Part shown: positions 1 through 64,000 of the stretch, piece after piece
Position numbering within the stretch: the stretch's first letter is position 1
How the letters are laid out: each line of letters opens with the position of its first letter
Assembly (NCBI GenBank): GCA_963969365.1
Contig: OZ017749.1
Span: 2,480,001-2,544,000 of the forward strand
DNA from: Asterochloris sp. CNOR1
Taxonomy: Eukaryota > Chlorophyta > Trebouxiophyceae > Trebouxiales > Trebouxiaceae
Direction: 5' to 3'
DNA length: 64,000 nucleotides
Notes under the pieces: model-generated
Database searches by the model: none
Seen by the model: the letters and a program-made list of their open reading frames with translations, nothing else
What the model was told of the DNA's origin: nothing
Translations under genes and position numbers: made by a program

Positions 1-3000
1 GCGGTGCGCCACTTCACCTGCCTGTTGAGACGGGTCCTACACTGCTGCTTCTCTTCTATGAAGTAGCAATGCGTGCGCGTCAGCAGGGTGCCACAAGTTG
101 ATGTGAAGCACAGGTCTGTGTGCAGCTGCATGGAAGCCATACCTTTGGGGAGGGGCGCATGAGCTGCACGTAAGCACATCCCTGTCACTGGCAAGAACCT
201 GAGAGCTGGCATGCCCTCCTGCAGGGCACCTCAGCTGCCTGTCAGCCACAGACCTGTATCGCTACCTCAGCCAGGAGCACGACGCCACCACTGTGGGCAC
301 CCTGCTGGGCATGGCAGCAGCCAAGCGGGGCACCCTGGATGCGACAGTGGGCAAGATGCTGTTCCTGCACATCCCCTCGCGGCACCCCACCAGCTACCCA
401 GAGCTGGAGCTGTCCCCCCTGGTGCAGGCGGCTGCCCTGCTGGGGGTGGGCCTGCTGTACCAGGGCAGCTGCCACAGGTGGGCAGCCTGGGCAGACTTGC
501 ACAGCTGAGATGAGTGGCAGAGTTGGGGCTGTGGCAGCCCTGGCACACCTGCACAGCTGAGATGAGTGGCAGAGTTGGGGTTGTCCCCCCTGGTGACGGC
601 CATTGCCCTGTTGGTAGTGGCCCTGCTGCACCAAGGCAGCAGCCAGTCTGAGTATGTGTGCATGGCTGAGAGGCCTATCAACATTGTATGCCTTGGCAGG
701 GCTCATGTACCCTTCCCCACCAGGGTAGATGCGTCAGATGGTCTGCTTGGCAGTGTCTCGACTTGCGGCTGTGCGCTGCCCCTGACATTTTGTGATCATG
801 CGTGAACACATCGAAGCAAGGCTCTGTGCAGATGAATGGTCTGCAAGGGCCAGGCCTGCTGCGGCCAGGAAGCTGCAAAAGACTGGCTGTGCTTGGCACA
901 GTTTCTGCTTGGTAGTTTCTGAGGGTGCAGGTGTGCAGGGGTGTGTGCAGCAAAAAGCCCTGATGCTGAAGGGGCAGGGCTGCCTTCTAGGCGCCCTGGG
1001 TGCCTTCTCTTTAGCCACGTGAAAGTCCAGTGATGTGCAGCTGGCAGGCAAGAGTTCACATGTTTGTGTGCTCATGCCTGGCCGTCATGTGCAGGTTGAC
1101 CGCAGAGATCATGATGGAGGAAATCGCTCGGCGGCCTGGCGGCGGCGGTGGGGAGGGCAGCGTGGGGGCCACCCATGGTGCGGCTGTGTCCCAGGATCGC
1201 GAAAGCTATGCCCTGGCGGCGGGCCTGGCCCTGGGATTGATCACGCTGGGGCGTGGGCGCAGCCATGTGGGGATCAGCGATCTGCAACTGGAGGCGCGCC
1301 TCAGGTGCGCTCTTGCTTAGAATGGCTCCTCAGACTGGTCTGTATGGCAGCAGTGCTGTCAGCTGAGTACCCTCAGCAACTTGCGGCTGGGGGTGAGTCT
1401 CAGGTTAGCTGCTGTCAGGTTGCAGCACTTGTGGGGCTGCATGTGGGCAGTCTGTGAGCTGCAATGCCCCCATCAGGTGGGCTGCCCCAACAATGTGCAG
1501 CAGGAGGTGCCCCTCAGGTGAGCTGCTCTGCTCACACGCTTCATGGTGGGGGTGCTCAGGCACTGGCGTGGCAAGCAGCCGCTCAGTGGCCTTCAAATGG
1601 GTTGCCAGGTGATCAGTGCTGCAGACCATGCCGTACTGCCCTACGTCTTAGATCGGAGGGGCTCCCTGACGGCTTACTCGAGTGCGGCCGCCACCAGAGC
1701 TTCACTGCCACTGACATGCTGTGCTTCGACTGCAGGTACTTCATGGTTGGAGGCTCAGACGCAGGCATGGTGGGCAGCCGATCAGTGGCCGCCTCAGGAG
1801 CCTCAGGTTCGCTCAAGGCCTCTCTCCGCGGTGGCCCTTTTGGCCCTGGCGGTCTAGGGTTTGACCCCACCCTGGGGGAGGACGCTGGCAGCATGCCTCC
1901 CATTGCCGGCGAGACCAGCTTCAACCGCAGTGGGCAGGACCCCAACGCGCAGCAGAGCGGGGTGTCTCAGGTAGGGCGTACAGTGGCAAGTGTCCTGCAC
2001 ACAAAACTCTTGTGACAGCAACAGTGCGGCAGCTGAATGTGGGCTTAAACTGCGGCAGGCAATGTCACCCTGCAGGTGTCTCTAGAGGCCAGGCTGGGAG
2101 CCTCACATGGCAGCTCCACCTGTGCCTGGCATCTGACTGTGCTGTGCTGGAATGCCCACTACTCCATCTGCTGTGCAGGCAATTGTGGAGGGCAAGCTGG
2201 GGGAGTCCTAGCTTGCAGCTACCCTGTGTTGTTCTGTGACATGTACCTATGCTGGAACCTTTAAGGATTTGCAGGTAGTTCTGGAGGGCAAGCTTGTGAA
2301 CTTGGACGTCACGAGTCCAGCAGCCACCATGGCTCTGGCCCTCATGTTCCTGAAGACCAACGACCAGGCTGTGGGCAGCAGCTTCACAGTGCCCCAGACC
2401 CACTTTGCGCTGGACTATGTGCGGCCGGACTTCATCCTGCTGCGCGTGTTTGCGCGGGGGCTGGTGCTGTGGGACTCGGTGCAGCCGACACGGGAGTGGG
2501 TGCAGGCACAGCTGCCTGAGATGCTCCAGGTGGGGCCAGCAGGCTGCATTGCTGTTGCAGGCACAGCCAGCTGTACATCCATTTGTAATGCTCCCTTTTT
2601 CTCTCTGCTGGGCTGCAGCCTATGCTCCTGGTGCAGCAGTGGGCCACCTGGTCGCCTTACTGTTGGCTTGTGTGTGCCATGTTGCTCTGGAAGATCAGTG
2701 TTGCACAAGCATAGCAGCGCACTGCTGCAGCAGGCAACTGCTGCTCACCAGCCTCAAGAGGGCAGCACGTGGCCCCAGGGGTCCAGGAGACCGCGGGGCA
2801 TGCCTGATGCTGCCACCCACCCTGCAGGGCCCCCTGAGCAAATTCATGGCGGGGGAGATCTGTGGCAGCAGCAGCGTGGACTGGCAGGCACTGGGGCAGG
2901 CCCACACCGCAGTCGTCGCAGGGGCCTGCCTGGCGCTGGGCGTCCGCCATGCAGGCAGCGCCAGCGCAGAGGCTGAAGGGGTGCTGCGGCACTACCTTCT

Positions 3001-6000
3001 GTACCTGCTGGAGGCCAAGCGCCAGGCCCCAGAGCGCCAGGCTTGTGAGCTCCCTGCCTCCATTTGCGGCATGTTCAGTGTACTTGAGTTTGTGTTCGAT
3101 AGCTGGAGGCTCATCGCCAGGCCCCAGCGCAACAGGCTTGTGAGGGTCCTGGCTGATATGGGCGGCTTGTTGTGGGTGAGCTTGGTGGGTGGGGGGGTGG
3201 TGCGCTGCCCCCTGATGTCGCATGTGGAGGCTGGCCCACAGAGGCGACAGGCCTGTGAGGGGCGTCAAGCCTGTTGTCCCACTGTATGACAGCTGGGGCT
3301 GTGTGCCTGAAGCTGCATCTGAGTGTGCTGGCCCATGCTGTGCGGCTGCAGAGGTAGGAACCCACTGGAGTAGTGACACCCATCGGACAGTAGCTGCATC
3401 ACACAGTATGCACACAATGTTGCCATCCTGCTGACTATGTCGCTCCTGCTGTTGAAGCGCAGCAGGCTGCACAGCTTGTCCTGCTTGCCTGCCCTGGTGC
3501 CGTGCTCAAGCCATATGGGGTCTGAATTGCTATGCAGTGGCCATCACTGCGATCAAAAGTAGCTGACAGCACAATCATTGAGACCAAGCAACTCATATGA
3601 AACCTCTTGCACCCGCTCTCAGGCTGCGCGCAATCTGCTCTGCTCTGCAGTGGGGGGCAGTGCGGCCTGGGGGCGGCTGGACAAGCACTCCTTGGAGTCG
3701 TGCATCGGCGTTGTAGCACTGGCACTGTCAGTGGTCATGGCGGGGACAGGGCACCTGCCAACATTCAAGCTGCTCAGAGGTGACACCTTGTAAGGTCCCT
3801 TGTGCATGGCACCCAGCTCTGGTGTGTGAATGCACCTCCTGCACCAGTCATGCCCACTGAGAGCCCCCTGATGATGTGGGACTCCTGTTGGGAGCTGCAG
3901 CTGCCAGCGAAAGCTTTGCCCTGCAAGCCAGCCACCACTGCAGTCCAAGCCAGCCAACAGTTCACTGCCTGCCGCACCCATGCCTGCAGCCCTGTACAGG
4001 CATGTGTGCCCACCTGCCCTTGGCAACTGCATGCATGCTCTCAGCACACAGCCCTGCAGCATGTCATCACCACTGCAACCCACCTCCTGCCCCACCTGTG
4101 CCCTGCAGCCCTGCGCAGGCGCCTGTGCGCGCCCGTGCCCACAGCGACAGCCCTGCAGTACCCCTCCCTGCTGGGCTTTGGGCAGCACATGGCCATCAGC
4201 ATGGCCCTGGGCATGCTGTTCCTGGCAGCAGGGTCCCACACCTTTGGCACCTCCAATTCCCAGGTGGCGGCTCTGGTCATCGCGCTGTTCCCCAAGCTGC
4301 CCCAGAGCACCACTGACCACCGCTGCCACCTCCAGGTCAGCCCCCTGTGATGTCATCAAGCTGTACTGATGACTACACCTTGTTGCATCTTTGAAGCGTC
4401 TTGCATCCACTGCTCGGCCTCAGAGTGATGTGCAGAGCACAGCAGCCCTTGCTGCCGCCTCCAGCTGGGTGCTTCCTGCAAGCTCGCGGCACAGAACGGA
4501 TGCACATCAGCATCGGGCATGACCTCTGCATCCTGCCAGGTCTGCCTCAGCCTGCCTTGGAGGCTGCTGCTTGCAGGCAGGTCCCCAGCCAGTGGTCAAG
4601 CTCCTGTTGAGCACAGGATGTTGTCCTATGCAGCATGCTTGACAACCAGTGCTCAAGAGACTCTGCATGCAGGTTGCTCAGCTTGAGTCATGCAGGTTGT
4701 GGGATTCAGTGGAAATGCAAACATCTGGTTGCTTTCACAAAGGCAGGTGACACTGCGCCGGCACCCCACACCTCCACTGCCAGGCCCCAGGCGCTGCGCT
4801 GAGCAGCACTCTGCTGCCTGCTGCAGGCCTTCCGCCACCTGTACGTCCTCGCGGCTGAGCGGCGGTGCATGCAGGCAGTGGACGTGGACACCCGGGAGCC
4901 TGTGTACGCCCCCCTCAACATCCATCTGCAACCGCCTGGTGCTGCAGCCACCTCTCAGGTGGCCACCAAGCCGCCGCGCCCACCTCAGGTGTGTGCGGTT
5001 GTAGGTTCACTTGCTGGTGGGGCAACAGCAGGGTTGTCTGGTGTGACCCCTGGCCGGTGGCCGGCAACTTGTCTGTGCCACCCTTGACATACGCCTGCAG
5101 CGGCCTGTTGCGGCGGCCACCTCTCAGGTGCCCAGCAAGCAGTTGAGCCCATCTCAGGTGCGCACCAGAGGGCATCAACGTTCAAAGAACAGTCAGGTCA
5201 GGGTGACAATGTTGATGCGTGAGCACGGGCAACCAAAGGTCAAAGGACGCTGAGCTGCTGGCTGGGGCTTGAGTCAGAGGCTGCACTGTGCCAGGTGGAC
5301 ACTGCACCTCAGTGCCAGCAGGCTGCAACTCAGGGGCCAGGCTGTCAGGTGAGACCAGGCAGACTGCCGCTGCTGCAAGCGCAGGGCTGCCCACGTGCAG
5401 ACGGAGGCGGCAGACGCCCCGAGCTCTTCAGTGTCCCAGCCCCTGCACTCCTTCATGAGGATGTAACATCTGCAGCTGCTGGGCAGTGCAATCGCATGAC
5501 TGCCTGCCTGCAGGCACGAGCGCCTGGGCCTTGCGCCTCCACAGGGCCCCAGCCCCTTCACCTGTCCCCCAGCCAGGCAGCTGCCCGGGATGCAACCTCA
5601 GCAGCTGTCGGCCAGCACCCGCTGGCAGCTGTCGGCGTGAGCACTGCCCGCCCTGCCCAGGCGGCAGCCCCGGCAGCTGACTGTGCCGGTGGGGACTCTG
5701 ATGAGGCGGTCACCGCGGTGGGCAACAGCTTCTCACGCACCGCCCCATGCCTGCTGCCAGAGCAGGACCAGGTGAGGCAGGGTCTGTGTGGACATGAAAG
5801 ATGGAGCTCAAACAACTGCCTGCCTGCAGCATGCACTGGACAGGGGTCCTGCCCCAGCCTTTAGGCCTCCGACCGGCAGCATGCTGCCCACTCAGCCCTG
5901 TTCTCGACACACGCAGCCTTTGACACTACAGCAGGTGTCCTGCTGGACGTTGACAGAGGATGCCATCTTGCAGGTGATGGAGGTGTCGGTGTGCGGCCCG

Positions 6001-9000
6001 CGCTACTGGCAGCACTCGGTCAGCGGTGCGGCAGAGGCTGGGAACCCCCTGGCGGCCTGCTACAGCGCGGGCGCCCTGCATGTGCAGCGGCGGGCTGGCG
6101 TGCTCAGCTATGCAGACGACCCCTCTGGCATCCGCAGTCTGCTGTCGAAAGCCTTCCGGCGAGTGAGTTTGGGAGGGCTGTGCCGCAGCAGTCTGTGGGC
6201 CCCGGCACCACATCGGGGCAGGGGCCCTGTCTGCCCCCTCTCTCTTGCAGAGCCTGGCGTGCAGGTGCATGTGCCCAGCTGCACGGGCGACAATCCTGGG
6301 ATCTGCAGCCTGCTGTTCAGAGCCTCATGCTGTGTGACTCCTTCACAGGGAGGTGCCTGACAGACTGCAGCATGCCTCACCCAGGGCAGTGCTGGTGGGT
6401 GGCCCGCCTCAGAGGAGGGGCCACCTTCTGCGCACAGCAAAGCCTGAAGGTGTCCTGCCTGCCCTAGAGGCACCTGCGTCTGAACAGGATGCACAGCGTG
6501 CACAGCCTGCCTGCCAGCAGGCACGCCAATGTGCTTCAGATTCCATCGCTGCGCTTTGCAGCAGGGGATGGAAGACGTTTGCATTGCATGTCACTGGGCA
6601 CCTGTCATCCAGCAAGCTGTTACCTGAGCTGCTGCTGCAGGGGTCTGGGATGGACAGCGACTCCGACCTGGCTCAGCTGTGCGCAACCTTCTCAGCTTCT
6701 CCATTCATCATGGCATTCGCGCAGGTGAGGGCCACTCCCACGTGCCTCTTGTGCATTACAATGTGCCATGACACAGCACACCGAGCTGCCTATGCCCACG
6801 TTGGTACAACACAATTGTCCCTGCACCACAGGGCCCAGTGTGCTGCCTTATTGGGGTCTTCAGGATCCTTGGTTGATCCATCAGTATGTGCTGCAAGTCT
6901 TGAGCAGCAGGACTGACTTGGCCCCACTGGCCCTGCAGCACATCTGCACCAGCAGGAGCAGCAGCACCAGCCTGACCTCCCATGGCTGGTGCTCGCTGCT
7001 GCCTTTACCCTGCCAGCCGCAGGAGGCGGCAGGCAGCTCGGCAGCTGCCATGGGAACACAGGCACAGGTTGGGGGGACAGGCGGGCTCCTGCAGCACCAG
7101 GCTACTCCAGGGATGCCTGCACAGGCCTGTTTGCAGGCCGACGAGCGCTTCCAGGCACTTTGCAGGTAAGTGGCAGCAGTGGCTCATCACCCTGTAGACA
7201 CTCAGGCGGGCAGAATGCATGCAGCACCCACCCCCCCCCCCATCATGTGCTCCTCAACAATCCAGGGTCAGCGCCCTGCACAGTACATGCTCAGAATGGC
7301 TGCTGTGTGCCGACGCAGCTCTGCTGCTGCTTGTCAGTGGACGACCTCTGGCCACTGTGGACCGTTGTGACCCCCTTTTGCCTGCTGCAGGAGCGCACTG
7401 TTCCGGTGCACCACAGAGGAGCGCCCTGCCATGTTGATGACCCTGCTGTTCCTGCATGCCACGGTGCAAGCAGCGCTCCTAGGGCAGGGTCCAACCGGCA
7501 CGGCACTGGCAGGTGACCTCTGCCTCGTCGAAGCACTGAACCCGTGGCAGCGTTTGCAGCTGCAGCACTCCAACTAGTTGTGAACTTGCACTCAAGGCGC
7601 TGCTGTACAAGACAAGGGTCTGGTCTGGGTTGTTGGGCTCTCAGGGAGACACCTGCCACCTTTGGCCATGGCAGATGGTCTGTGACAACCCTGCATTGTC
7701 TAGTTTTGGTGCACCATCAGGAGGCCTGCTCCTACAATGGCGGCCAAAGGGAGCCGGTGTTTGCTGCTGACCTGCTGGTGCTCTGCAGACCAGTCTGTTG
7801 GGCTGGCCCCCACAATCCCCCTGTGGAGCTTGAAGATGGCCCGGGCCTACGCTCACAGCAGCTGGTCTGCAGCCTGCTCTGCAATCAGCAAGGTGGGCCG
7901 CTGCGGCTGGCACCACCATGCAACATGTCTCCACGTCCTGCCACAACACCCTTGGCTCCCCAAGTGTCCCCCGCAAGTAACACTGCCAGGCAGGAGCTAA
8001 ACCCACTGCCAGGGCAGACTCAAGGGCAACTCAATGACATTCTGCTACTGAGATGGGCCATGCTTAGGTTCTTCGGCAGCTGATGATTTTGCACACTCTG
8101 TGCCAGCAGCCACAGGTTGACCTGTTGAGGAGCCCTGCCTGCAGATGCACTTCTCAGTGCTTTGACTTGAGCCTGCTGCGGTTCATGCTCAGTGACGCCC
8201 CATCTTTGCTCTGCAGGGGTTGCCAGCTGATACGCCGGCAGAGACCAGGAAGGCATGGGCTGCGCTGCTGCCGGCGGACTTTGTTGAGGGCCTCTGGCAG
8301 CAGCTGCAGGGGCTGTGGGTCCACATGGCCTTCTGCCGCCCCGCTGCAGCAGCATCGCCTGCACAGGCAGCAGCACCTGTCGCTGCTGCACAGTCCCCTG
8401 GTGAGTGCTCCCCTGCTCAGGCAGCGGTGCCTGTTGCTGCTGCACGGTCCCCTGGTGGGTGCTTGCCTGCAAACACAGCACTGGTGCCTGTCAGTGCTGC
8501 ACAGCCCTCTGGTGTGCGCAGGCACAAGCGGCAAGGCATCACGTCCTGCATTGCCACTGCTGCGCCAGCAATGCCGAGGTTGCCCATCCACTGAGACGCT
8601 CTCTGTGACCTTCAGCTGCCTGTCAGCCTGGGTGAGGCAACAAGGGCACTGCCTGGTTCATGCAGCCTGTAGCATGCCTGACTGCCAATACCTACATGAA
8701 GTGGGGGCGCTGTCTGTGACCCTGCAATTGAGCTGCCTCTGTGCAGGTCCGGCGACCAGGGCGCGGGCAGCTGCCCTGGCCAGTGCGGCGCGGCAGGCGG
8801 CACACATGAGGCCACTGGTGCTGGACTACTTGCAGACAGGGCGCATGCCTGATACTGACGCCGTCCCAGGTACCTTCCTCCGTCTGGCACAGGCAGTCCG
8901 CCACGATTTGCATCAACATGTTGCCGGCATCTTTTCCAAGTCACCTGACAACTGTTGTAAGTCACCTCCTTGCCTGCAGGGCTCTTCCACACTGCAGACC

Positions 9001-9209: not shown

Positions 9210-9462
9210 CACAACGTAGTGAAAAGCAATCAATAATTGAATGTGGGCTGCACGCATGGGCACACATTGCGACAGCAAAACAAAATGCAAGCTGCAGTCC
9301 ACAGCATTCAAGTATCTGCAGATGGTTCATTCTCTGCTGTGTGAGACAGCTAGTCAAGTTCAAAGAATGTAGTCAGACTATCCTGTTGCAAGTCCAGTGT
9401 TGTAGACCACACTGCTGCCATGCGCTACAAGACTTGCAGTGCCTAGACGCCCAAGCTGTCAC
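9210..9462. other. Convergent 3' intergenic gap, APC1 / ferrochelatase
   Basis: About 250 bp separate the APC1 stop from the ferrochelatase stop on the other strand. It must hold both 3' UTRs and is more AT-rich than its surroundings. I see no gene in it. Confidence 0.6.
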
Positions 9463-14441: not shown

Positions 14442-14993
14442 CCTGCAGGGCTAAGAGGAGCCCTGTCACCCTGGCGAATGTGCTGCTAAAACATGTACGC
14501 TGCATGCATGGCCTGCACTTGCAGAAGCATTGGCTCCAGTTGAGACTGCTCCACATCAGGACAGCCTCAGTGCTGACCGCCAGGCGGGATCAAAACTGCA
14601 ACTGGCCCAGACAGCAGAGGTTATGCCCAGGGGCCAGGATGCTGCACACCTGCAGGAGGGTCTTGACCTCCAGCCAGACTCTGTGTTGTAACTACAGCTG
14701 GGCTGACTGTCCATGATGGTGCTGCAGGGAGGCCTATACATGGCGCTGTGAACTGCGCCGATGCCTGCAGCAAATGCCTTGAAAGGGGTGGCTGTGCCTT
14801 CCTGCACACACGACAGCCACGCAGTATTGAATTTCGATTCCTCCAAAAAGGTCAGAATACTTGGTGAGTCCGGCTGCTTGGATCAGGTAAAGCTATAGGG
14901 GAGACCTGAGGTGTCACAAGCATGCTCTGGCAAGGCCTGCCTGCCATCCCTTCACATTGGCTGCATGCAGGCTGTGGGCAAGTCTTGCAGACC

Positions 14994-15607: not shown

Positions 15608-15900
15608 ACTGTGGAGGAATTTATTGAGCAGTTGGGAGGGGAGGCGAAGAGGGGTCTGACCCGCATACAGAGGCTCAGGGGAGAGGCAGAACTAAGACAA
15701 TCAACCCATAAGCACTGAACAGTGGGCAGCAATTGCCAGCTGCTTGAGGCGTTTTGGCAGGGGCAGTCACCTTCATGCCTCCTTGGGATGGTCCATCTAC
15801 AGGCTGCCATGATTGCCACGACAGCTGCATGGTCAAACCAGCTATCCACTTTGACTCAGTTATCCCGACCCCTTTCAGCTGTTCACGAGTTGCTTTCGAT

Positions 15901-16971: not shown

Positions 16972-17172
16972 TCTGATGCAGTGAAAATTGTGAGAGAGCA
17001 TGAGCGTGACTGCAAACGAGCGATGGCAAGCGCTATGGACAAAGCGACCTGCCCATTCCTTCCAGGCTGTACTGATTCAAGCATTGCTTGCATAGTCATG
17101 GAGGGAGGCACCAGAATGAAAGGGGCACAAGACTAAAAGCTACGGATCACCAGGACAGACTAACTCTAGACC

Positions 17173-42410: not shown

Positions 42411-42581
42411 GTTGCGAGAGGCCCAACACAACGCGCCGAGGGAGCCTCCCAACTCGGCCCTGTCCAAACACAGCACACCTCAACTTCGTTTCCCCTGCCC
42501 TACCCTGCCCACTCAACGCAGCTGCCTGTTCCGGAAGTCCATCGAGCTGGCAGAGCCTGCCTGGTAGTCTGCCTAGCATGA

Positions 42582-46425: not shown

Positions 46426-46467
46426 AGCCCGCGACAGGCTGGTGAGCAGGCGGGAAGGGCACTCAGC
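46426..46467. promoter_or_regulatory. Very short head-to-head intergenic region, SNAPC1-like / subtilase
   Basis: Only 42 bp separate the furthest-upstream possible start on the - strand (46425) from the subtilase ATG (46468). With the alternative - start at 46365 the gap is about 100 bp. Shared promoter use is inferred from spacing alone. Confidence 0.4.
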
Positions 46468-52400: not shown

Positions 52401-55400
52401 AGGTATCAAGCAGCCTGCTGGGGCAACCCCCACACCCGCGCCTGTGAGTGAGGCAGTTGCTGGCGCCCTGCCATTAAATGCAATTCAGCTGCTGAGCCCA
52501 GCAGGGCCACTAAACTTGACAGCAGAGAGCCCTGCAAACAGCTTGGCCTCCCCAACAGGCTCACAAGCCAGCAGCAATCAGACCGCTGCTAAGGGAGCAG
52601 TGCCGGCTGCTGCATCTCCTGAACAGGAGCCAGGGCAGCCTTTTAAGGCCACCATGGCGCCTGAGGTTGTCGCCAGCCCAGGAAACGCCATGGCCACAGC
52701 TGGGCCCATGCTTGGCCAGGGAGACAGCACCATCACAGCTGAGCCAGCGGCCAACCTGGCAAGTGCTACCACAACGCCTGAGCAGAGCCCTGAACAGTCT
52801 GCAATCGCCGCCATTGCCAGCCCAGCAACCGCCACCAATACTGCTGAGGTGCTCGGCAGCCCAGCAACAACTACAGCCACTGCTCAGCCCCTGCCTGGCC
52901 CAGCAAACGCCACCATCTCCGCTGCGCCAGGCGCCAGTTCAGCACCGGCAACCACTGCAGCTGAGCTCTCCTCCATCCCAGGAAACACCGCCAACACAAT
53001 TCAGCCCATCACAGGCACCCCCACAATGCCTGAGCCGGTGACCAGCCAGGTACAGCCTGGCCTCATCATCCAGGCACAGCCGCCCAACGGCACCAGCACC
53101 CTGATGGCAGGCACAGCGCAGGGAAACAGCAACAGTGCTGCCCCTGCAGTGGCACCTGCTGCTCAGGCACCCATGGGCTGGCAGCAGGCAGCCCCAGGAG
53201 CTGCAGGGCAGCCCAGGAACGTTCCCCTGCCAGCCACACCTGCAGCATTGACTGCCACCGTACTGCCTGCAGTCACGCAGCCAGCGCTGATAATCGCAGC
53301 CCTGCCCGTCCAGCCGGCAAACACACCTTCAAGCACAGACACAAGCTCGCCATGTCCCGCTGCCGCCGGCTGTACAGCAGGGAACAGCAGCATTGGGGGA
53401 GGCGCTGCCTCCCTGGCCGCCTCCGCCGTGCCGACTGCCACAGCTCCGCCCAGCGCAGAGCAACCCACTGCCAGGAGCAGCATGTCTGCACCCAAAGCTG
53501 GGAGCACGCCTGTCCCGGGTGCTGCTTTGAGGACGGCTGCACCAGCACCAGCGCCAGTCACGGCATCTGCCGGCACAGCGCTGCCAGCAGCTGTGCTGTT
53601 ACCAATGGCAATGGTAGGGCCTCTGGCTGGTGCTGCCGGCCTTCCCACGCCTGCAGCTGCGACACCAGCCAGGGCGCCAGCCACAGCACAGCCTCTGCAG
53701 CGAGCTTATGTGCCTGCACCAGCCCCTGCCCCTGGCACCCACCAGCCACAGGGGGCCAGGCTGCGACCTGTCGCACGCCAGGTCAGCATTGCTCCCACGA
53801 CAATGTCAACACCTTTCACAGCCGGATCCAGGGCCCCAGCCACCCCATCTGTGTCTCCTGTGGCTGCTGCACCATCACCATCAGGGCAGCTGGCACGCAG
53901 CCCCCTGGGACGTGCAGTGCCGGCAGCTGCACCAATGCTGCCTCTGCTGCCATCTGCGGTGGCTGGGCAGACCATCATCTTGCAAGTGGACATTGGGGCT
54001 GGCACCAGTCCGCCTGGCGCTGCAATCACAAGCATTGAGAGCGCCACAGCACCTAGCACTGAGACACCTGGCAGCCCCTCAGCTGCGCCTGAGCTGGCGC
54101 CAGAGAACACGTTGCAGAGCAGTGCTGGCAGCTCTGCACTGAGGCTCATCAATTTAACGTACTCAGCCTGCCGCGCCAGCCTACACTCTGCAGATGGCCA
54201 GCAGGAGCAGACTGTGCTTTGTCAGGGAAGTCAAGGCCAACTGCTGCCTGCGGCGGCTTGCTCAGCAAACAGCACAGGTAATCGCTCCAGCGTCTTCATT
54301 GTTGCTTGTCAGTTCTCTACACCAGGCTCTAAGGGCCACTTCTGGCAACAACAGCACTGAGCAGGGTTGTTGAGGAGTGCAGACTCAAGTCTCACATGTC
54401 CAATACCTGCGTACCGGCTCTGTCTGTGTGCAGGATACCTTGGATCGCTGGTGGTCAACTGCAGCTCTGCAGTAGGCATGCCAGCCACACAGGCCTCATG
54501 GCACCAGCTCCCCTGGGGGCCTTGCTCCCTGCGATGCAGCACTGGTGTGCAGCAGCGCACAGTGGAGTGCCTTGCCAGCAATGGAACTGTGCTGAATGCT
54601 CACCAATGCCCAGGAGAGGTGCCAGCAACCAGCCAAGCGTGCAACACGCAGCCATGCAATCTTGTGCTCTGGAAGGTGAGGGGCACAAGGGACTCTCAGC
54701 CAGTCAGGTCTGCTGTCACAAATCTGAGCTGGTCCAAGCATCAGCAACACCTGCTGCATGTGTCTGCAGGTTGGCAAATATGGTGGCTGCAATTCCACCT
54801 GCGGCGGTGGCACCATGTCGCGTGCTGTTATCTGCAGCGCAGGGAACAGCACTGCAGCAGACAGCCTGTGCTCAATGCTGCCCAGGTGAGGCTTAGCATT
54901 ACAGCGCTTGTGCTTGGCTACATGCTCACACTTCAACCAGGAGCAGTGCTTCTGTGACTGCAGACCGCCGACGATCACGTCCTGCAATGTGCAGCCCTGC
55001 GATGCATGTGTTGACCAGGGCGGAGACATCTGCTCTGAGAGGGGGACCTGTGTCGAGGGAGCCTGCAGGTGGGTCCACAAAGCTCCCCCTATGCTATGCA
55101 AAATGCCCCCAAATACATCCAATGTTTGGCACCTCAGGCATTTTACCATCTGATGTTGCTTTGCAGGTGTCAGGCTGGGTGGCAAGGCACATTGTGTGAT
55201 GTGCCAGCTGGCTGTTCTGGGCAGCTGGACAGCAATGGGACGTGCTGCTCTGGCTTCGTTGACAGGTCAGTCTCTGAGCAACACTCCCATGCTGAGGTGC
55301 AGTCCGGGGGTTGCCCATGTTCAAAATGTAAAACACAGCTGACATGTGCCTTGACCTGCTGCAGGCAGGGCAACTGCTGCCCAGGGGTTGCTATGCCAGA

Positions 55401-57833
55401 CTCTGATGGCCAGTGCTGCACAGGCGGTCACCTAGACGCTTGTGGGAAGTGCAATGGCAATGCCACAGTGGTAGACCTTGCTGGTGGGTACCTCCCTGCA
55501 GTGGTGCACTCAATGCTTGCAACAGCAGCGCCTGCCTGCGTGCTCGAGCCACCCAATGCTTGTAAAAGGCATTGCTCCTGCAGTTATGCAGCCTCCGCTG
55601 ACAGCCAAGCACCAGCAGCTGCTGTAGGGCTGCCTTGCTTCTACATGGCCCTCAGCAGCTGCAAGTTGCTGAGCTCAGGATGCCACCCGAGCTTGCCCTG
55701 GATTGATGTACAGGCACCTGCTGCACCACCCTGCTGGATGCTGGCGGCCTCTGCTGTCAGAGTGGCAGGCTTGACAGCTGTGGGGTGTGCAACGGGGACA
55801 GCTCAACCTGCAGCCTCAATGCACAGCTGCAGCTGCTTCTTGAGGGAGCGGGTGCAGACCCAAAGATGCTCAACACCAGCTCCCAAGACATCAGAGCAGG
55901 TCAACCATGCAGTCCAAGGGCTCATTGGCTTTGGCTTGACCTTGATCTGTAGGCAGAACATCAGCCCAGCTCTGACCTGGCAGCATCAAGCTTGAGTGTT
56001 AGTCTGTGGGCAGACCTTAGGATCCAACCTGGCATTCAGCTTCAAGTGCTTGTCTGTGGGCACCACCTCATCTCAGCTAGCCGGTGCTGCAGCGCTATCC
56101 TGCGGAGAGTTACATTGGCAGGTGCCTGCAGGAGTCGCCAGCCTTCTGGATGTTGATGCAGCACATGTGAACGTGACCAGTGTCCAGTCAGGCGCTGGCC
56201 AGCCATCAGACACAGTCTCAGCCCAGTCCCTCCTGGGCAACCCAGGCCTACGGCGTCTGCTGACCCACTGGGATGGGGGTCCACAGCATGGCAGCAGACT
56301 AGTCACAGCCACGCAGCACCAAGGTCTTGGCATAGACGGCAGCAGCTCTGACGCCTGGCTTCCAGGACCTGACAAACATGCAGCTCAGCCCGCAACAACC
56401 ACATCTGCAGCTCAGCAGTTTTCCAACTGCCAAGACCACGCCCGCATGCTTCAAGGGAGCTCTACAGCCAATGTCAGCGCAGCTGTGGCGATTGCCCCAG
56501 GCACACAGTCCAACCTGACCTCAATCAGCCACATCTTGACGCTGGGGCAGGCGGCCCTGCTGCTCCAGGTAGCTCAGCCGGGGTGACAGGTCGAGCCCTC
56601 CTGACCCAGCCCTGCTCTGCTCACGATGGAGCCCACTGGTGACACCTCTCTTATGGCCTGCTGCAGGCTGCTGTTGGACACTCATCTGGCTCGATACAGC
56701 TTCTTGAAAGTCCACTCATCACTGCAACACCCGTCTGTGGCAACCAGGTGAGCCAGCAATCTGCTAAGCAATCTGCTTGCATTTAGCGCTCCACACCTGG
56801 AGGCCAGGTCACGTGTACTGTAAAGTTACCTTATTTTGAGAATCATAGCATGAAGTGCACTTAGCTTGACTCATGTGCAGGTTTGTGAGGTGGGAGAGCT
56901 CCCCCAATATGGGGCAGCTTCTGCCACATCAATTCAGCCAGCCACACTGTGTCCTGCTGACTGCCCGGTGCCCTGGCATGCGTGCCCCAGCGTGGCTGTG
57001 GCAGGCGCAGGCATGCAGCAGTGCAGCGGTCGAGGCTTCTGCCTGCCCAGCAGCGGCGTGTGCAGCTGCTTCCAGGCAGGGTGTCTTGTTGTGCTGTCAT
57101 GCTGAGCTTTGCTGCCGCCTGCAACCTATCAGGCGATTAACTGCAGTGCCCAGCCTGTCTCCCGAGAAAGCAGGCAAAGGGCTGCCTGCCTGCAGGGCTA
57201 CAATGGCGACAGCTGTGGCCAGTGTGCAACCGGGTACAGAATGGTAAATCTCACCAATCAGGCCCAGTGCAGCCCCATTCTGCAAAGCAGCCACCTGGAT
57301 GCCAGCACAAGCAGGGCTGTGGCAGGCACCAGCCCAACAGGAGGTGGCAGCTCAGTGGCCAAGATAGCAGGGGTGGCAGCAGGTGCCGCATTGCTGGTTG
57401 CAGCAGGCATTGCAGGTGAGTTTTGTTTGTTGCCAAGTCATACCTCCAGTCCACATCAGCAAGCCTGTTCAAGAAGCACTTGCAATGACATGCTGCTGTC
57501 TTTCAGGGGCTTTCAGGCCATTGCCTGACATCTGCAGGCGTCACCATTTTTGCGATGCACCGGCGCAAGGCTGGGCAGCGCCGGGACTCAGAGGGCCCCC
57601 TACAGAAGTCAAGCTGTGAGCCGGCTGCCACAACATTTCCAGCAATCAGCAAGACCCCTCAGCCTGCAGCGGGCACGCCTGTGCAGCTGCAAACGCTCCC
57701 CAGGGAGCAGCACGAGTGGCCAGCAGGAATGGCTGCGGAAGGTTGGTCCAGCTTTGAGCACCTGCCGCAGGGAAAGCTGCATGGAGCCACAGTGCCAGCC
57801 TGCTGCGGCATGGTTGCTTGGCAGTGTTGCTGA
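46468..57833 (+). CDS. Large secreted/membrane-anchored subtilase with TSP1, Cys-rich/EGF-like and transmembrane domains
   Basis: A peptidase S8 protein of more than 2000 residues in about 25 exons. The signal peptide is [19 protein letters not shown]. An I9-like propeptide ([23 protein letters not shown]; 47002-47149) precedes the protease (47383-49567). Catalytic Asp is in [16 protein letters not shown], His in [14 protein letters not shown], oxyanion Asn in VIVAAGNDD, Ser in [19 protein letters not shown]-like exons follow ([38 protein letters not shown]). One exon of about 2.4 kb (about 51847-54277) is an Ala/Pro/Thr/Ser linker. TSP1-like repeats follow ([37 protein letters not shown]), then Cys-rich CCxxGxLDxCGxCNG units and an EGF-like exon near 57000. 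A membrane helix near 57360-57415 ([17 protein letters not shown]) and a basic tail ([13 protein letters not shown]) end the protein. Protease exons agree in phase; later exons are less certain, and two genes cannot be fully excluded. A wall-remodelling role is inferred. Confidence 0.8.
51847..54277 (+). repeat. Low-complexity Ala/Pro/Thr/Ser-coding exon of the subtilase
   Basis: About 2.4 kb is one open frame made of loosely repeated Ala/Thr/Pro/Ser/Gly segments, with recurring GNAxATA and SPATATAEV-like units near 52650-53000. It probably codes a stretched, O-glycosylated stem like other algal wall proteins. It is by far the longest exon in the window. Confidence 0.75.
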
Positions 57834-57898
57834 GCTGCAATCGCTTGCCGACACCCTCTGCATGTGCTGAGCCTGCGGATGCACTGGGCTGCACATAG

Positions 57899-58675
57899 AT
57901 GCAGGAGGCTAGCAAGGAGGGAGGGGGGGCCATATGGAGCAATGTTGAAGGCGACGCTGTCCGCATTGACTCGAGGGATCCCTGCTGTGCAGGTTTTGAA
58001 AGCTGCTCCAGCCAGAGGTCGCGCCGGACAGCCAGCTGCAGCAGCGGGCGCCATCGCCAAGCCCTGCACGCTGCCCTGATGCTGCCGTCGCCTTGCCAGC
58101 CTGGGGCAGACGCAGGTCACTTGCAGGAGCTGGCTAGAGCAGGCGTGGCTGATGCTGCCTGGCAGGACACCGAGGCTGGTGAGAGGCCAGGCCACCGGCG
58201 GCTGCGCTGTTCTGGGTGTGGCTGCGCCTTGCAGTGTGAGACCTTTGAGGGCTGTCCAGCCAGTGTGAGACTGCCATTGACAGCCCTGTCAAATGGTGCA
58301 GGACAAGCAGGTCATCAGGAAGAAGAGGCGCGTCTGCAGGCTGCATGCATGCAGTCCAAATATGCACAGCCATCTGAACAAAGAGGCAGGCAGCAGCCAG
58401 GCCACTGCAGCCACCAAGGGGCAGCTCCCGCAGGGCGCTCTGCGGCGTGGCAGCCCCAACGGCTGACCATGCCGGCGCAGCACGCACGCGACCAGTCCTC
58501 TGACAGGCAGACAGGTATGCTGCCTCCCAGGTGTGCCCCTGAGGTGCTCAGATTCGCACAGAGCCCCCATACACTTTGTCTGCCTCCCTGCAGGCACCGC
58601 TGCCCGCCTCCACAGCAACTGGTCGCTGCACAGCATAACCTTTTCAGACAGCCGGGCACAATCATGCACCAATAG
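57899..58675 (+). other. Open frame downstream of the subtilase stop, status uncertain
   Basis: A 258-codon open frame on + follows the proposed subtilase stop by 65 bp. Its start (EASKEGGGAIWSNVEGDAVR) after a TGCAG acceptor-like string could be a further exon of the membrane protein's tail if an intron removes the stop at 57833. The rest is Cys/Gln/Arg-rich without a motif and could equally be a 3' UTR. Confidence 0.3.
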
Positions 58676-58739
58676 GTTGCGCTCCAGTCTGTCCTGGTCA
58701 CTTGACCGCCAGGGAGCTTGATATGCTGCCTGAATGACA

Positions 58740-59775
58740 CTGAAACTCCCATCTTATTCTGTAGCATCACTTTGAAGATTGCCCAGCCATTGATTCTGCA
58801 CTGATCAACTCCCTTCTGCATGGTATGGTTCATCGTCCACCCCAGACTGCAAGTAGCTATATATGTCTGCATTGAGAACTTTTGACTGATTTGAAACCGG
58901 GTGACGACTTTGGCGGTTTGGAACAGCACGATTTAGACTCCCTTCCTTCCTCTTGCCTTCTAAACAGTTGCCGCATCGATCCTCCAGCGCGCTTCTCGCA
59001 AGCCCCAAGTGGTAGTGACCGGAGTGGAGGAGTGACTTCAAGGCAGCCCTTGAGCGGAAGAGGCTGCCTTTTGTCCGGCAAGACAGAGCCTCGAGGAGGC
59101 CGATCACAGCCTCACCGAAGAGGCAGCAGGGCGATACATCAAACAAGGAGCTCAAGGCAAAGCTTGCATGCAGGTAAGCCTGGGGAGAGGGGCCTCCTGG
59201 GTCCCACCCCCCCCTGAACGGCAGCAGCAGCAGGCTCCCAGAGCCATTCATAGCATAGAGAGGAAGCAGCGGAGCTTCCCGGGCTGTTTCGGGCTTGCCA
59301 CCTGGCCACCAGCAGAATTCTTCAATTGGCCGTTCGAAGCAGCCGGCCACCCAGCAAGCTTCAATGATGGCTCTGCGGGCCTTCAGTGGCCCTCCGGAGA
59401 GCTGCTCGAGGCCAGCAGGCAACAAGCCCTGCCTGCATCAGACCAGCAGAAGTGTCACCTTTGCTGCACTGGGCAGGAGAGTGGTTAAAGGGACCTCAAG
59501 CCACCCACTCTGCAAGTCAGATCAGGACTCAGCCCCAGCTTAGGCAGCAAAAGCCTGGCATGTGCGCCTGGTGTTGCAAGCTTTTGATGCTGGGTGCTGC
59601 TTGCTGGTGTGCCTTGCTTCCCTCTCGGGCCAGCAAGCTCCACCTGACCATCCATTCCCAGGGATGTATCATCATGCATATCTTTCCCGCTCAGTGGGCA
59701 CAGCAAACGTCAATACCCAGCAATGGGCTGCCTGCAGCCGCTGCCGTGCTAGTTAAGCAACAGCTGTTTCCTGTA
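58740..59775. other. About 1 kb between the two matrix genes; promoter side of the pherophorin-like gene
   Basis: No gene is well supported. The composition from 58860 to 59520 differs from the surrounding introns (fewer CTGCAG strings). A 206-codon open frame lies on the - strand at 58805-59425, and a possible + exon ends at a GTAAGC donor near 59172 (KELKAKLAC). This may be an upstream exon, a 5' UTR exon or a small gene. Confidence 0.4.
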
Positions 59776-62700
59776 ATGCAGGCAGTGGTTCTGCTGCTGG
59801 CTGCAGCAGGGCAGGCACTGACAGCAGCAGCACAGCGGGCCCCAGCGCCCGCACCCTCATCGCTTGGAGCATATGTTGACAGTGCTGGTCGGATAAACAG
59901 CTGCTATGCCATTGATGGTATAGCCAGCCCAGCCTTCGCAGCAAACGTGTCCTACACTGATTCTGGCTCAGTTGGTTCCTGCACTGTGTACTTCAAAGTG
60001 AGTCACCCATCGTTTGGCATCTTTTGGCCTTGCCTGTCTCACTGCGCATGCCCATGGAGCACTGTGTGGACTCCCAACTCATTGTTCTACTTGTTCAAGC
60101 ATAATCTATGCGGTTTTCATCTGGGGATGTGATTCCCAGATTGTAGATCATGTTAGTCACTCCGTCTAGCCTTTGTACAGCTGAGTCAAAGTAGCTGCCC
60201 TGTCCCATGTCCACCACCAGCCTGATGCTGAGCACGCTGTTGAGAATGGCATGCCCTGTGCAGGTTGACGCTTTGGCCAATGCCACAAGCACCACACGCA
60301 CCACCTCCTTTGGCCTGAGGCTGGCAGACCAGCTGGTGGCTCTTCCCCAGCGGTTGTCCACCACTCCCGCAGCAACTCTCAGCCAAAGTGAGCCTAGCTG
60401 CATGCTTCTGGACAGCCTGCAGAGGAGGCGACCCACCTGTACTGCAAAGAGCTGCTGGGCCATGTCAGCCCTTACAAGCCCAACCTCAGCTGGTTCACAG
60501 ACATGTCCTGCCACCCCCTGAAGCTAGTTGCTCACATGTCAGCCAATGCTGCCACCGCCGCCTGCAGGCCAGGGAACCATCTCATGGCCCGTCGCGGCAA
60601 ACAAGAGCAGCCAGACGTTTGCCATCACCCTCAACACGACAGGGCTGCAGACAGTGGCGGGCCCTGGCGGCGTGCCCGGCCTGACAGACCTGTGCCAGCA
60701 GGGTCTGACCATCACCCGCCCTGACGGCAGCACAGCCTTCACAGAACCTGGCGCCAGCGCCACATCTGCAGGCTCCTGCATGTGAGTGGGCAGTGTGCAT
60801 CAGCCCAGCTGCTGCCTGGTCCGGCTGCCTGGTCCGGCTGCCTGCATCAGCGCCAGTGTGAAGGCCTGAGTCTGGCACCTGTATTGTAACAACTGTTGCT
60901 CAGTGGCACTGCCTGGCCGCCAGGCTTTCTGCACACAGCCACCTTGTTGGGGGGGCTTGCCAAGCTCAGCTCGAGCCCTTGCTGGGTGCTCTTGTCCTGC
61001 CTTCTAACCTGCTCGTGCTGTGCGTGGGACAAGCAGTGAGTTGCTGAACCGCCAGCTGACGTCCTGCACTGTGCCTGCCCTGCAGCCTGTTTGTGCAGAA
61101 TGGCGCCAACCAATGCGCCTATGCCATCATCAGCGACAAGGACGCGCCCCAGAGCAGCCCGCGGCTGGCCTTCCCACCAGCACCTGCCTTCACGCTGGGC
61201 AGCTATGGCGGGGGCTATGGCCCCAACTACAGCCCACCCACATATGGCTCGCCAGCAGTCTATCAGCCGCCGATGAAGTCAGCGGCCCTACCGCCGGCGC
61301 CCACACTGTTTGGGGCTGCACCAGTGCAGCTGCCTGCTGCCTATGGCCTGCCAGCTGCCCAGCCGCCTTCCCCAGCTGTCAGGTGGGCCTGGCTGCGCAC
61401 ACCTCTGCAGTCAACACTCACGGGAGAGGGCATGCAGATTCTCATCATTCTCAGACACGACTGCTTTGCACTCAACTGCAAGTTCCCTGATGCTTCTGTT
61501 GGCAGCAATGGGACCTGGGAGTTGCAGGAGACTCACCAGGCAACACCAGTCTGCTCATCGTATAAGAACCACCACATCAGTAATTGTGCGCTACCAGCGA
61601 TTCTCTGCCCGCATGGGTCGCTTGACCAGGAGTGTTGTCCAGAGAGCTCAGGCATCAGCCTGCCAACACATGGTGGTGCTGCAACAGGCTTGCTGATGCG
61701 AGCTCTGCACATGGCTGACCCATGCCTGCGCATGTTGCAGGCCTTTCCAGATGGGCTCTTCAGCAACGCCGCCGACAGCCTATGGGACACCTGCACCTGC
61801 AGTGTATGGCACTCCTGCAGCCCAGCCGCCTGCACCCGCTGTCAGGTGATGCCTGCTGGACGCCTGGCTGCATCAGCACTAAGCCTTAGTCACCAGCTGC
61901 ACACTAGCTGCTGGCCAATGCTGCTGCAGTCAATTTGCAAAGGAATCTGTAGGGAATGCTGTTCCCCTGTCTAGCTTTGTCCGCAAGGGTCCCTTTAACC
62001 GATTCATCACGATGCTTGCGCTGATAGTTGTCCCAAACCAACATATATGCATGTGATGCAGGCCTGCTGCCATTGAGTCATTCGGCCCCCCTCAGGTGGT
62101 GGCATACAGTGCACCTCCGCCAGCACCCTCAGCCTACGGCACACCTGCCCAGCAGTCGCCTCCGCCAGCAGTGCAGGCCTTCACTGGAGGGGCCCCCCCG
62201 AAGGGCGCACCTGCGCCGCCAGCAGTGTATGGCACACCCGCCAGCTCCCCGGCTGCAGTGCCTCCCACGCCGGCGCTGTTTGGGACTGCACCACCTGTGA
62301 CTATCAGCCCTCCGTCTGCTCCTGTCAGCTATGGGCCGCCACCTCAGGCCGCGCCTGTGATCTATGGCACACCGGCGGCTCAACCTCCAGCACCTGCTGT
62401 CAGGTCAGGCCTTCAAGTCTGCCAGCTAGGCTGTGCCTCTGGCACCCCCTGGGCCATGTCGGGCTGTGCAATTGCTTGGGGTAGCTCCCCATACGTGGAA
62501 GGCCTGCACTAGTGCATTGAGCTGCCCTCCCGCCGCCCGCTGCAATCAGCTGACGTTGTAACTGCCTCTACTGCAGGCCCTTCACCGGTGGAGCTGTGCC
62601 CCCCACGCCAGCAGCCTACAGTCCAGCCTCACCACCACCAGCGGTCTACGGGACGCCTGCCCAGCAGACGCCTCCACCAGCGGTGAAGGGCTTCTCTGCA

Positions 62701-64000
62701 GGGGCACCCCCTGTGGCTGCTCCCGTGGCCTACAGCTCACCTGTGCAGGGTCTGTTCGGCCCCGCCATCAGCTTACCGCCCCAGCCCGCGGCGCCAGCCT
62801 ACTCCGCGGCGCCAGCCTACTCCCCAGCACCAGCCGTCAGGTGAGACGCCACTTCTCGATGAGGCCTGGCCATGGCGGCTGTCTCTCAATAGCCAGGGCA
62901 GTGTTGTCTGGTCGGTGGCCTAACTTCTCATGGAAGGGGATCGTCCTGTGGCTGCCCTTCATGCCCTTCACATGCTGTGATGCTGCTGCCTGGCTTGCAG
63001 CCACACTGCTCACTGCAGGAGAACTGCTTTCCTTTGCTGGACACCAGGAGAGCAATCTTGTTGTTGCCTTTTGCTTGAGCCGCAATCGCTGTGCAGGGTC
63101 CTTGCTGGCCAGGCTGGCCCATTGCTTCCTGCCGGGTTGCCTGTGGGATTGCGTGCTGGACCATGCCACTCCCACTCTGGGATGGCATGCTGGACCATGC
63201 TACTCTCATCTCCACATACACGCTGGGTGGCTGCCTGCAGGCCTGCTTCCATTGAGTCCTCAGGGCCACCCCAGGCAGTCTACAGTGCGCCACCTCCAGC
63301 CCCAGCAGTGTATGGCACGCCTGCCCAGCAGGCGCCTCCACCAGCAGTCAAGGGCTTCACTGGATCGGCACCTCCCACGGGCGCTCCCAGCGCCTATGGG
63401 CCCCCGCCCACCCCTGCACCAGCAGTGTACGGAACGCCTGCCCAGCAGTCACCGCCCCCTGCAGTCAGGTGAGAGACTTGTGTTGTCTCACTGCTGACAG
63501 GCTGCTGCTGAGCATAGTGATCAGTCAGGCTGCTGGAGGCAGCTCAGGACGGTAAGGCCAGCAACCTGGCCAGGCCCCATGGTACAGCCCGCAGCCAGCC
63601 CACCTGGCTCAGCCGTGCTGCCTGCCCTGCTGCAGGTCGTTTGCTCCAGCAGCGGTGGCACCCACCCCTGCGGCCTACAGCAGTCCCCAGCCGCCGTCAC
63701 CACCAGTGTACGGCGTGCTCGCCAGCCCGCACCTGTCACCCACAGTGCAGGGCTTCTCCACGGGCAGCCTGCCCCCCAAGGGTGCCCCGGCTGCCTACGG
63801 GTCACCCGCGCCTCCCACCTACGGGGCGGCAGCGCAGGCCCCATCACCATCAGTAAAGGGGACAGCCTTGAGCATGCCCCCTGCCTATGGCCCAGCACCA
63901 TACGGTGAGCTCCAACATCTTGCTTGAGTGCATTGTCCAGCCTGTGGGCTGGGGTTTGTGCCCATCCGCCGGCTCTAAAGTAGAGCCTAGTTGAATAAAC
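59776..64000 (+). CDS. Pherophorin-like cell-wall protein with Tyr/Pro repeat exons, 3' end outside window
   Basis: A secreted, hydroxyproline-rich-type protein. The start MQAVVLLLAAAGQALTAAAQ is a signal peptide. Exon 1 is 59776-59997 and exon 2 begins at 60264. A Cys-containing globular part follows (HLYCKELLGHVSPYKPNLSW, TDLCQQGLTITRPDG, ILFVQNGANQCAYAIISD), which resembles pherophorin domains. From 61180 a series of repeat exons codes YGTPAQQ(S/T)PPPAV units with APAVYGTPA and KGFTG. All the repeat-exon junctions I checked are phase 2, each exon running from AG|G (Arg) to GTC AG|. Symmetric exons of this kind can be duplicated or lost without shifting frame. Tyr and Pro density suggests an insoluble, cross-linked wall component. 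The gene continues past 63906. Confidence 0.72.
60820..60847 (+). repeat. 13-bp tandem duplication in an intron
   Basis: CTGGTCCGGCTGC occurs twice in a row in an intron of the pherophorin-like gene. It is a perfect, hence recent, short tandem duplication. Confidence 0.8.
63148..63215 (+). repeat. 34-bp tandem duplication in an intron
   Basis: Two adjacent units containing GTGCTGGACCATGCCACTC and ATGCTGGACCATGCTACTC lie about 34 bp apart, each preceded by GGGAT. The copies differ at a few positions. Confidence 0.8.

Follow-up and report, generated by a model that had tools for sequence, protein, structure and literature searches.

Introns of Asterochloris sp. CNOR1 carry copies of the ends of their own neighbouring exons, and the best reading of these copies is that they probably stem from short tandem duplications of an ordinary kind, most of them old, which lengthened introns. 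At a score of at least 14, we found an own-exon copy in the adjoining intron at 41 of 932 junctions, where unrelated introns predict 1.0. The junctions come from the window (W, the whole 64,000-nucleotide stretch analysed here) and four further blocks (B1, B2, B3 and B7), together 264 kb on five contigs; 953 junctions lie outside block B5, and the 21 that did not enter the test had either an intron shorter than 60 bp or an exon of insufficient length. Gene models were built in this analysis from the sequence, and the splice sites taken to be in use are those that the models predict. Each junction was given five controls, which were unrelated introns of the same genome matched in length and orientation. 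At a stricter score of at least 16, 31 of the 932 junctions had an own-exon copy and none did in the controls, while at a looser score of at least 12 there were 69 against 11.4 expected. The copies scoring at least 14 fell at 18 donors and 23 acceptors of the five-block sample. An earlier filter demanding that both flanking exons be strong gave 15/263 donors and 15/263 acceptors at p<=1/61, with 4.3 expected for each. Words resembling CTGCAG are abundant around acceptors (PWM), as a chance or shared low-complexity origin of the similarity would have it, and the sequence-only reading had allowed that composition might explain everything. However, matched introns of the same genome gave 0 copies against the 31 own copies at a score of at least 16, so that this explanation is refuted at these scores and has a negligible probability.

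Within the window, 16 junctions in six genes on both strands scored at least 14 (weakest accepted score, 14.0): six in an APC1-like gene, four in the ferrochelatase gene, three in a SNAPC1-like gene and one each in the NT5C/HAD, LRR and subtilase genes. These and related pairs are as follows.

399-645, + strand: APC1-like, donor 477/478; exon end 399-474 copied in the intron at 570-645 (80% over 76 bp, offset 171, score 33.6)
481-584, + strand: APC1-like, nested 52-bp tandem duplication in the same intron, 481-532 and 533-584 (90% over 52 bp; TRF 2.0 copies)
1275-1524, + strand: APC1-like, exon end plus donor, 1275-1311 copied at 1488-1524 (78%); outside the 16 scored junctions
1359-1413 and 1473-1527, + strand: APC1-like, further intron pair in the 1275-1524 region (71%)
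1554-1790, + strand: APC1-like, acceptor before 1736; exon start 1753-1790 copied at 1554-1591 (79%, offset 199, score 20.4)
3007-3154, + strand: APC1-like, donor 3044; exon end plus donor 3007-3059 copied at 3102-3154 (81% over 53 bp, score 21.8)
4892-5160, + strand: APC1-like, donor 4988; 100-bp exon end 4892-4991 copied at 5061-5160 (76%, offset 169, score 33.6)
5424-5561, + strand: APC1-like, acceptor before 5514; exon 5537-5561 copied at 5424-5448 (80%, offset 113, score 14.0)
6100-6325, + strand: APC1-like, donor 6162; exon end 6100-6154 copied at 6271-6325 (71%, offset 171, score 19.8)
8355-8520, + strand: APC1-like, unit of about 54 bp in three tandem copies, possibly with an exon end plus donor inside (TRF period 54, 2.9 copies); tallied as intron-intron, being an exon in the first gene model and below threshold in the second
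10576-10750, - strand: ferrochelatase, donor 10702; exon 10708-10750 copied at 10576-10618 (72%, offset 132, score 16.6)
10901-11260, - strand: ferrochelatase, acceptor 10962; exon 10901-10932 copied at 11229-11260 (78%, offset 328, score 16.6)
13002-13435, - strand: ferrochelatase, acceptor 13043; exon 13002-13036 copied at 13401-13435 (77%, offset 399, score 17.4)
13957-14046, - strand: ferrochelatase, acceptor 13994; 40-bp unit over the junction (TRF period 40, 2.2 copies, 86%; score 18.2)
31148-31244, + strand: NT5C/HAD, acceptor before 31209; exon 31214-31244 copied at 31148-31178 (87%, offset 66, 17-bp perfect run, score 22.2)
33222-33330, - strand: STK19, intron-intron pair 33222-33259 and 33293-33330 (82%, offset 71)
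35938-36097, + strand: LRR gene, donor 35959; exon 35938-35956 copied at 36079-36097 (19 bp, 95%, offset 141, score 16.8)
42787-43053, - strand: SNAPC1-like, acceptor 42839; exon-start copies at offsets 104 and 192 (73% over 75 bp, 69% over 65 bp; score 17.6)
43536-43681, - strand: SNAPC1-like, donor 43639; exon 43644-43681 copied at 43545-43582 (87%, offset 99, score 27.0)
44111-44260, - strand: SNAPC1-like, donor 44218; exon 44224-44260 copied at 44138-44174 (78%, offset 86, score 19.4)
47296-47443, + strand: subtilase gene, acceptor before 47383; exon 47419-47443 copied at 47296-47320 (80%, offset 123, score 14.0)

The duplication at 481-584 is a later event than the copy at 399-645, in whose intron it nests. 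The strong-exon filter missed the best case in the window because the first gene model had set small exons on the copies. These results bear out the sequence-only reading in the presence of copies at donors and acceptors and on both strands, and in the comparison of own exons with other introns that it proposed as a check. Its gene list holds for APC1, ferrochelatase, the HAD gene, the LRR gene and the SNAPC1-like gene, but the pair found in STK19 is intron against intron. The spacings that it gave as 52-213 bp run from 30 to 399 bp among the listed window pairs, and of its perfect matches of 17-30 bp, the 17-bp run in the NT5C/HAD exon copy stands whereas the almost perfect match of some 30 bp, within 481-584, joins intron to intron. 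It also found so many loci in one window striking; the window indeed has about twice the share of positive junctions found in the other blocks (16/225 against 25/713 junctions, Fisher p 0.025), yet those blocks are positive too, which makes the phenomenon genome-wide and the window a rich sample of it.

The copies lie close to their sources and in direct orientation, both of which are observed directly. Scanning the window for self-matches at offsets 12-411 (score at least 18) returned 37 near pairs, against 0 and 0 at the distant offsets 5000-5399 and 12000-12399. Across W, B1, B2, B3 and B7, at offsets 30-629 and a score of at least 16, there were 141 near direct pairs, whereas four distant ranges of equal width together held 7, as expected of the tandem duplication across junctions that had been proposed; inverted pairs showed no comparable near excess (5 near, 3 distant). 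Block B5, which is transposon-rich (57 near pairs, 18 distant), was excluded from this count. Tandem duplications make up about 6% of the non-coding DNA in the sample analysed, and the events are mildly clustered, with 9 segments holding at least three where 1.6 are expected, a pattern for which uniform placement does not account. Gapped alignment reached the junction in 31 of 31 chosen hits and passed it by at least 6 bp in 27, many of these alignments spanning most of the unit, although the loose aligner extends in controls as well and ran at least 6 bp past the junction in 68% of them. By a strict test, the intron side beyond +7 lay above control in 7 of 26 cases at p<=0.05 (combined p 2.7e-6), and fixed-register identity on that side gave a weak signal, 0.40 by +6 to +12 and 0.30 by +20 over a baseline of 0.254. 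Since the intron side has mostly decayed and loose-aligner controls pass the junction too, the tandem geometry is clear in part of the cases only. The direct copies are nevertheless consistent with junction-spanning tandem duplication in units of about 30-300 bp.

Under this reading, short tandem duplications, with a median unit of 104 bp in a range of about 30-300 bp, would have arisen across much of the genome, perhaps through slippage or the fill-in of staggered breaks. A unit lying wholly within an intron would yield two copies, both decaying. A unit spanning a junction would yield an exon copy held by selection and an intron copy that can decay, as splicing continues at the original, outer site, and the outcome would be a longer intron with a degenerate exon-end copy inside it. 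Such junction events would be recognisable for longer because the exon copy is conserved. Copy-bearing introns are longer (median 451 against 290; 312 once one unit is subtracted). Recent paralogues that would show introns before and after duplication gave nothing useful: for window positions 1-9400 and 40000-46400 every match was a self-match, and 46300-64000 had two hits, each about 100 bp long and 77-78% identical.

Mismatches between copy and exon fall at all codon positions (90/468, 84/470 and 117/468 at positions 1, 2 and 3, or 0.19, 0.18 and 0.25), which means that the copies are decaying and are not spare exons. The third-position excess is as expected if the exon, too, has changed silently since duplication. 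That the copies serve as alternative or mutually exclusive exons under selection is suggested by the exon-like sequence, often with splice-site letters, that they retain, and by the small exons that the first gene model called on some of them. This is very improbable, however, as changes are not confined to third positions, the first two mismatching nearly as often, most copies hold one exon end only, and small indels are frequent (31 gaps in 1568 aligned bases). The mutation spectrum is ordinary (Ti 164, Tv 150), ruling out RIP-like mutation; C>T/G>A changes stood at 24/145 at CpG and 63/853 elsewhere.

The sequence-only reading had further supposed an active mechanism by which exon ends lengthen introns or give rise to new ones. 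For a process aimed at junctions, the strictest of three exon definitions (exon score at least 12) gives 45 junction pairs where naive random placement expects 27.0 +/- 4.3, and W alone gives 17 against 13.1 +/- 2.7. Intron-only pairs, in contrast, are near expectation (54 against 54.6), and a forward null of uniform placement, which takes in the longer recognisability of a conserved exon copy, predicts 40-48 junction pairs against 44-45 seen under two exon definitions, so that the excess vanishes in two of three sets. In the strictest set it predicts 31-36 against the 45 seen (p 0.005-0.06), and there may thus be a mild junction preference, a marginal excess in that set only. The second expectation of such a process, creation, was examined in exact register, with the offset equal to the intron length, the exon 5' end resembling the intron end and the intron start resembling the next exon start. 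One 89-bp intron (B3 37762-37850, that is C3:737762-737850) has it, the only one of 309 at >=27/55 matches (0.05 expected); at >=24/55 matches there were 3 of 309 against 1.05 expected. With young copies nearly absent as well, a junction-aimed process is unlikely. Abundant junction copies need not imply a junction-seeking mechanism, given that near-uniform duplication with slower, exon-anchored decay yields a similar picture.

What we observed is therefore the lengthening of existing introns, the part of the earlier claim that survives, and not intron gain of the AGGT type. As outlined in excerpts of PMC4974935 and PMC3443670, the tandem genomic duplication model of intron gain (Rogers 1989; Hellsten 2011) likewise has a tandem copy of an exon-containing segment with splice-site letters in both copies; unlike in that model, duplications here normally cross an existing junction and lengthen an existing intron. 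In potato RdRp, according to the excerpt of PMC4974935, duplication over an intron-exon boundary produced a new intron and exon structure. The unit there, intron end plus exon start, is that of our acceptor-side cases, but our gene models retain the outer original acceptor and leave the copy intronic. Tandem exon duplication with mutually exclusive exons (PMC9013439) also sets copies of exon sequence side by side, whereas the copies here decay at every codon position and mostly comprise one exon end. Introns are also known to arise from introners, mobile elements with target-site duplications (PMC9860276), and those duplications could mimic exon copies. Yet introns show no likeness to one another beyond chance (unrelated 1.0, own 41), distant offsets yield almost no pairs, and the copies, 20-100 bp long, lie inside introns rather than at both ends, making an introner origin exceedingly improbable. 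No sequence common to introns of different genes emerged from the 932-junction test, where matches stayed at control level. Among the papers on algae that literature searches turned up, none reports the same phenomenon in its title or abstract opening.

Gao and Lynch reportedly found in 2009 that internal gene duplications are common in eukaryotes; internal duplication is common to both cases, and exon-anchored dating and the fewness of young events are added here. Only 1 of 89 non-exonic pairs of at least 30 bp (exon-intron or intron-intron) reached 90% identity, whereas production at a steady rate would put 29-30% of them there, a result that contradicts the continuing process that had been claimed. 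Split in two, the test gave 1/47 and 0/42 such pairs (P 2e-6 and 3e-7). Without the 30-bp cut, 10 of 58 intron-intron pairs reached 90%, every one above 93% being 16-20 bp long, and at periods 40-79, 4 of 31 pairs did. Young copies thus fall short of old ones, a scarcity observed directly in the sample, and with most events old and few young, duplication output seems reduced; presumably output fell, rather than a hidden bias concealing young pairs. Assembly collapse of young duplications seems an unlikely cause, as it should spare pairs of 90-95% and B5 has 9/40 at 90% or more, albeit in repeat-rich DNA. Copying that was error-prone at birth would account for the scarcity of near-identical pairs with copies that merely look old. 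We consider this improbable, because third positions differ more (117/468 against 174/938 at the first two), which points to silent change in the exon itself since duplication, and because divergence is greater on the intron side than in the exon; together these mean that time must have elapsed.

Junction-spanning duplications, having one copy frozen by the exon, would be dated fossils of an episode of old tandem duplication. We are evenly divided over whether that episode ended or dropped steeply at around 0.1 neutral substitutions per site before the present and left a measurable share of intron length, the duplicated part of non-coding DNA seen in the sample. Of the two dating estimates, one gives 0.07-0.12 and the other 0.12-0.25, with hardly any overlap. 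If such an episode took place, introns grow by duplication in waves and at no steady rate, and junction-spanning copies could date such waves within one genome, with no need of a sister species. In practice, exon-end-like copies mislead gene finders, as when the first, self-trained model placed small exons on some of them. GC content in the stretches measured was 0.564-0.592, in an assembly of 56.38 Mb and 21 contigs; excerpts of PMC6652019 give the Asterochloris glomerata genome as 56 Mb, with a GC content of 56-62% and 9 introns per gene.

We sampled the 56.38-Mb genome (21 contigs) at the window (C4:2480001-2544000) and at five 50-kb comparison blocks, B1, B2, B3, B5 and B7, on contigs C1, C2, C3, C5 and C7. 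The main counts omit the repeat-rich B5, giving a sample of 264 kb. Exon ends are those predicted by a small self-trained gene finder, and in the window the following had Pfam matches:

Ferrochelatase model (9463-14923, minus strand), 8.7e-102
Stk19 model, 6.8e-18
SNAPC1 model, 1.6e-17
Subtilase, 1.1e-15
LRR_8, 1.7e-11
Short-chain dehydrogenase, 1.1e-11
NT5C model, 5.5e-8
APC1-like gene, weak proteasome/cyclosome repeat, 4.5e-5

The C-terminal part of the ferrochelatase model is chlorophyll a/b-binding-like (PF00504), at 21.7 bits narrowly missing the cut-off of 22.3. The predicted protein at 24000-27000 (plus strand) has a match to the Ferritin-like domain (PF00210, 31.1 bits, cut-off 24.5) between dioxygenase-like and dehydrogenase-like parts, and this model is probably several genes fused.

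Near copies are abundant. Self-matches of the window scoring at least 18 at offsets (distances between two copies) of 12-411 numbered 37, against 0 and 0 in two distant ranges, and the window with B1, B2, B3 and B7 held 141 pairs scoring at least 16 at offsets of 30-629, against 7 summed over four distant ranges. The sequence-only reading held that introns carry copies of their own exon ends, at donors as well as acceptors, and proposed comparing exons with their own introns. For 932 of 953 junctions (B5 excluded), the final 60 bp of the exon, minus the 3 nt next to the junction, was searched against its own intron and five unrelated introns matched for length and orientation. Own matches far exceeded these controls at every cut-off (69 versus 11.4 expected at a score of at least 12, 41 versus 1.0 at 14, 31 versus 0 at 16), confirming copies beyond chance; the 41 at a score of at least 14 comprise 23 at acceptors and 18 at donors. 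Junctions with a copy were more frequent in the window (16/225) than in the other blocks (25/713; Fisher p 0.025).

The pairs are direct; inverted pairs showed no near excess (5 near, 3 far). Separately, an inverted repeat in the LRR gene region (window 37655-37697, score 27.6) has its partner about 405 bp off. Gapped unit-to-unit alignment of 31 matches (score at least 15, offset at most 260) reached the junction in 31/31 and overran it by at least 6 bp in 27/31, with an aligner so loose that 68% of controls, in which an unrelated intron was spliced in, overran by 6 bp. When the intron side past +7 was tested strictly, 7/26 were positive (p<=0.05; combined p 2.7e-6). With the register fixed, identity stood at 0.81 well inside the exon, dropped to 0.52-0.61 at the splice site and to 0.40 over +6 to +12, and was about 0.30 beyond (baseline 0.254). 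A gradient of this shape is expected if the exon copy is conserved while both intron copies decay; it also leaves tandem geometry plain in only part of the cases. Mismatches in the exonic part occurred at every codon position (90/468, 84/470 and 117/468 at positions 1, 2 and 3), so the intron copy is free to change, and we rejected the idea that these copies are spare exons; the third-position excess fits silent exon change after duplication. The mutation spectrum is ordinary (164 transitions, 150 transversions), with CpG transitions at 24/145 versus 63/853 elsewhere and 31 short gaps per 1568 aligned bases. Offsets are mostly 50-200 bp, dropping past 250; exon-intron and intron-intron events with offsets of 30-299, 102 in all, total 11,858 bp, or 6.4% of 185,931 non-coding bases. 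Such duplications may arise by slippage, or by staggered-break fill-in then joining. Exon-exon pairs from Pro/Ala/Thr-rich coding tandem repeats (window 52647-53016 and 61790-63467) are probably protein repeats, apart from the intron finding.

A continuing process, as previously proposed, is not borne out by the ages of the pairs. Where 30 or more bases matched and the offset lay within 30-399, identity of at least 90% was found in 0/42 exon-intron and 1/47 intron-intron pairs, whereas simulated steady production, seen through the same detector, predicts 30% (P 3e-7) and 29% (P 2e-6). The production cut-off that fits best lies 0.12-0.25 substitutions per site back for the exon-intron pairs and 0.07-0.12 for the intron-intron pairs, two estimates that scarcely overlap. 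Tandem Repeats Finder pointed the same way, with 14 arrays of period at least 25 (B5 excluded), none exceeding 91%. Counting against the deficit, 10/58 intron-intron pairs reach 90% when the length cut is lifted, those above 93% being only 16-20 bp long, and 4/31 pairs of period 40-79 reach at least 90%. The assembly is able to hold such pairs, since B5 retains 9/40 at 90% or more, and selection cannot account for a shortage of young neutral copies relative to old, because every old copy was once young. The simplest reading is that duplication output has fallen. B5 itself (loci L016-L020, C5:1200001-1250000) has many distant matches as well as a 93-bp double unit present at two places, and its repeats look like transposon copies.

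At offsets of 40-299 we counted 44 exon-intron, 54 intron-intron and 14 exon-exon pairs, versus 38.9 +/- 5.0, 54.6 and 18.5 at random; limiting exons to scores of at least 12 gave 45 exon-intron pairs versus 27.0 +/- 4.3. A forward null, with units placed uniformly, coding-breaking ones discarded, the exon copy held and the remainder decayed, predicts 43-48 for the main exon set (44 seen), 40-45 for exons scoring at least 8 (45 seen) and 31-36 for those scoring at least 12 (45 seen, p 0.005-0.06), a set that counts real but weaker exons as non-coding. The first two sets match uniform placement and the last shows an excess; on our reading no junction preference is clear, and a mild one may exist. 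Events cluster mildly (dispersion 1.25, upper limit 1.22), and 9 non-coding segments hold at least 3, versus 1.6 expected. Duplications are sparsest in B7 (loci L021-L025, C7:1000001-1050000), at 0.28 per kb of non-coding DNA versus 0.74 in the window. Median intron length is 451 at junctions with a copy (312 once one unit is subtracted) versus 290, though longer introns also offer more chance of finding a copy.

Tandem duplication as an intron source, and duplication spanning an intron-exon boundary, are already published (PMC4974935 and PMC3443670), so the event type itself is known; this analysis adds the own-intron-controlled count, the age deficit, and a null that accounts for junction copies with no aiming involved. 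The further proposal that introns are created from exon ends was not upheld by an exact-register test, in which the offset must equal the intron length: just 1/309 introns had at least 27/55 matches (0.05 expected), and 3/309 at least 24/55 (1.05 expected). The intron reaching 27/55 is the one candidate:

C3:737762-737850 (B3 37762-37850; L014 7762-7850), minus strand: candidate duplication-made intron, 89 bp

Its host gene had no Pfam match. The intron's start matches the next exon's start at 24/27 positions, and its end matches the upstream exon's end at 12/28. That upstream exon is low-scoring and located in a linker, and the intron may therefore alternatively derive from duplication of a pre-existing acceptor rather than from intron creation.
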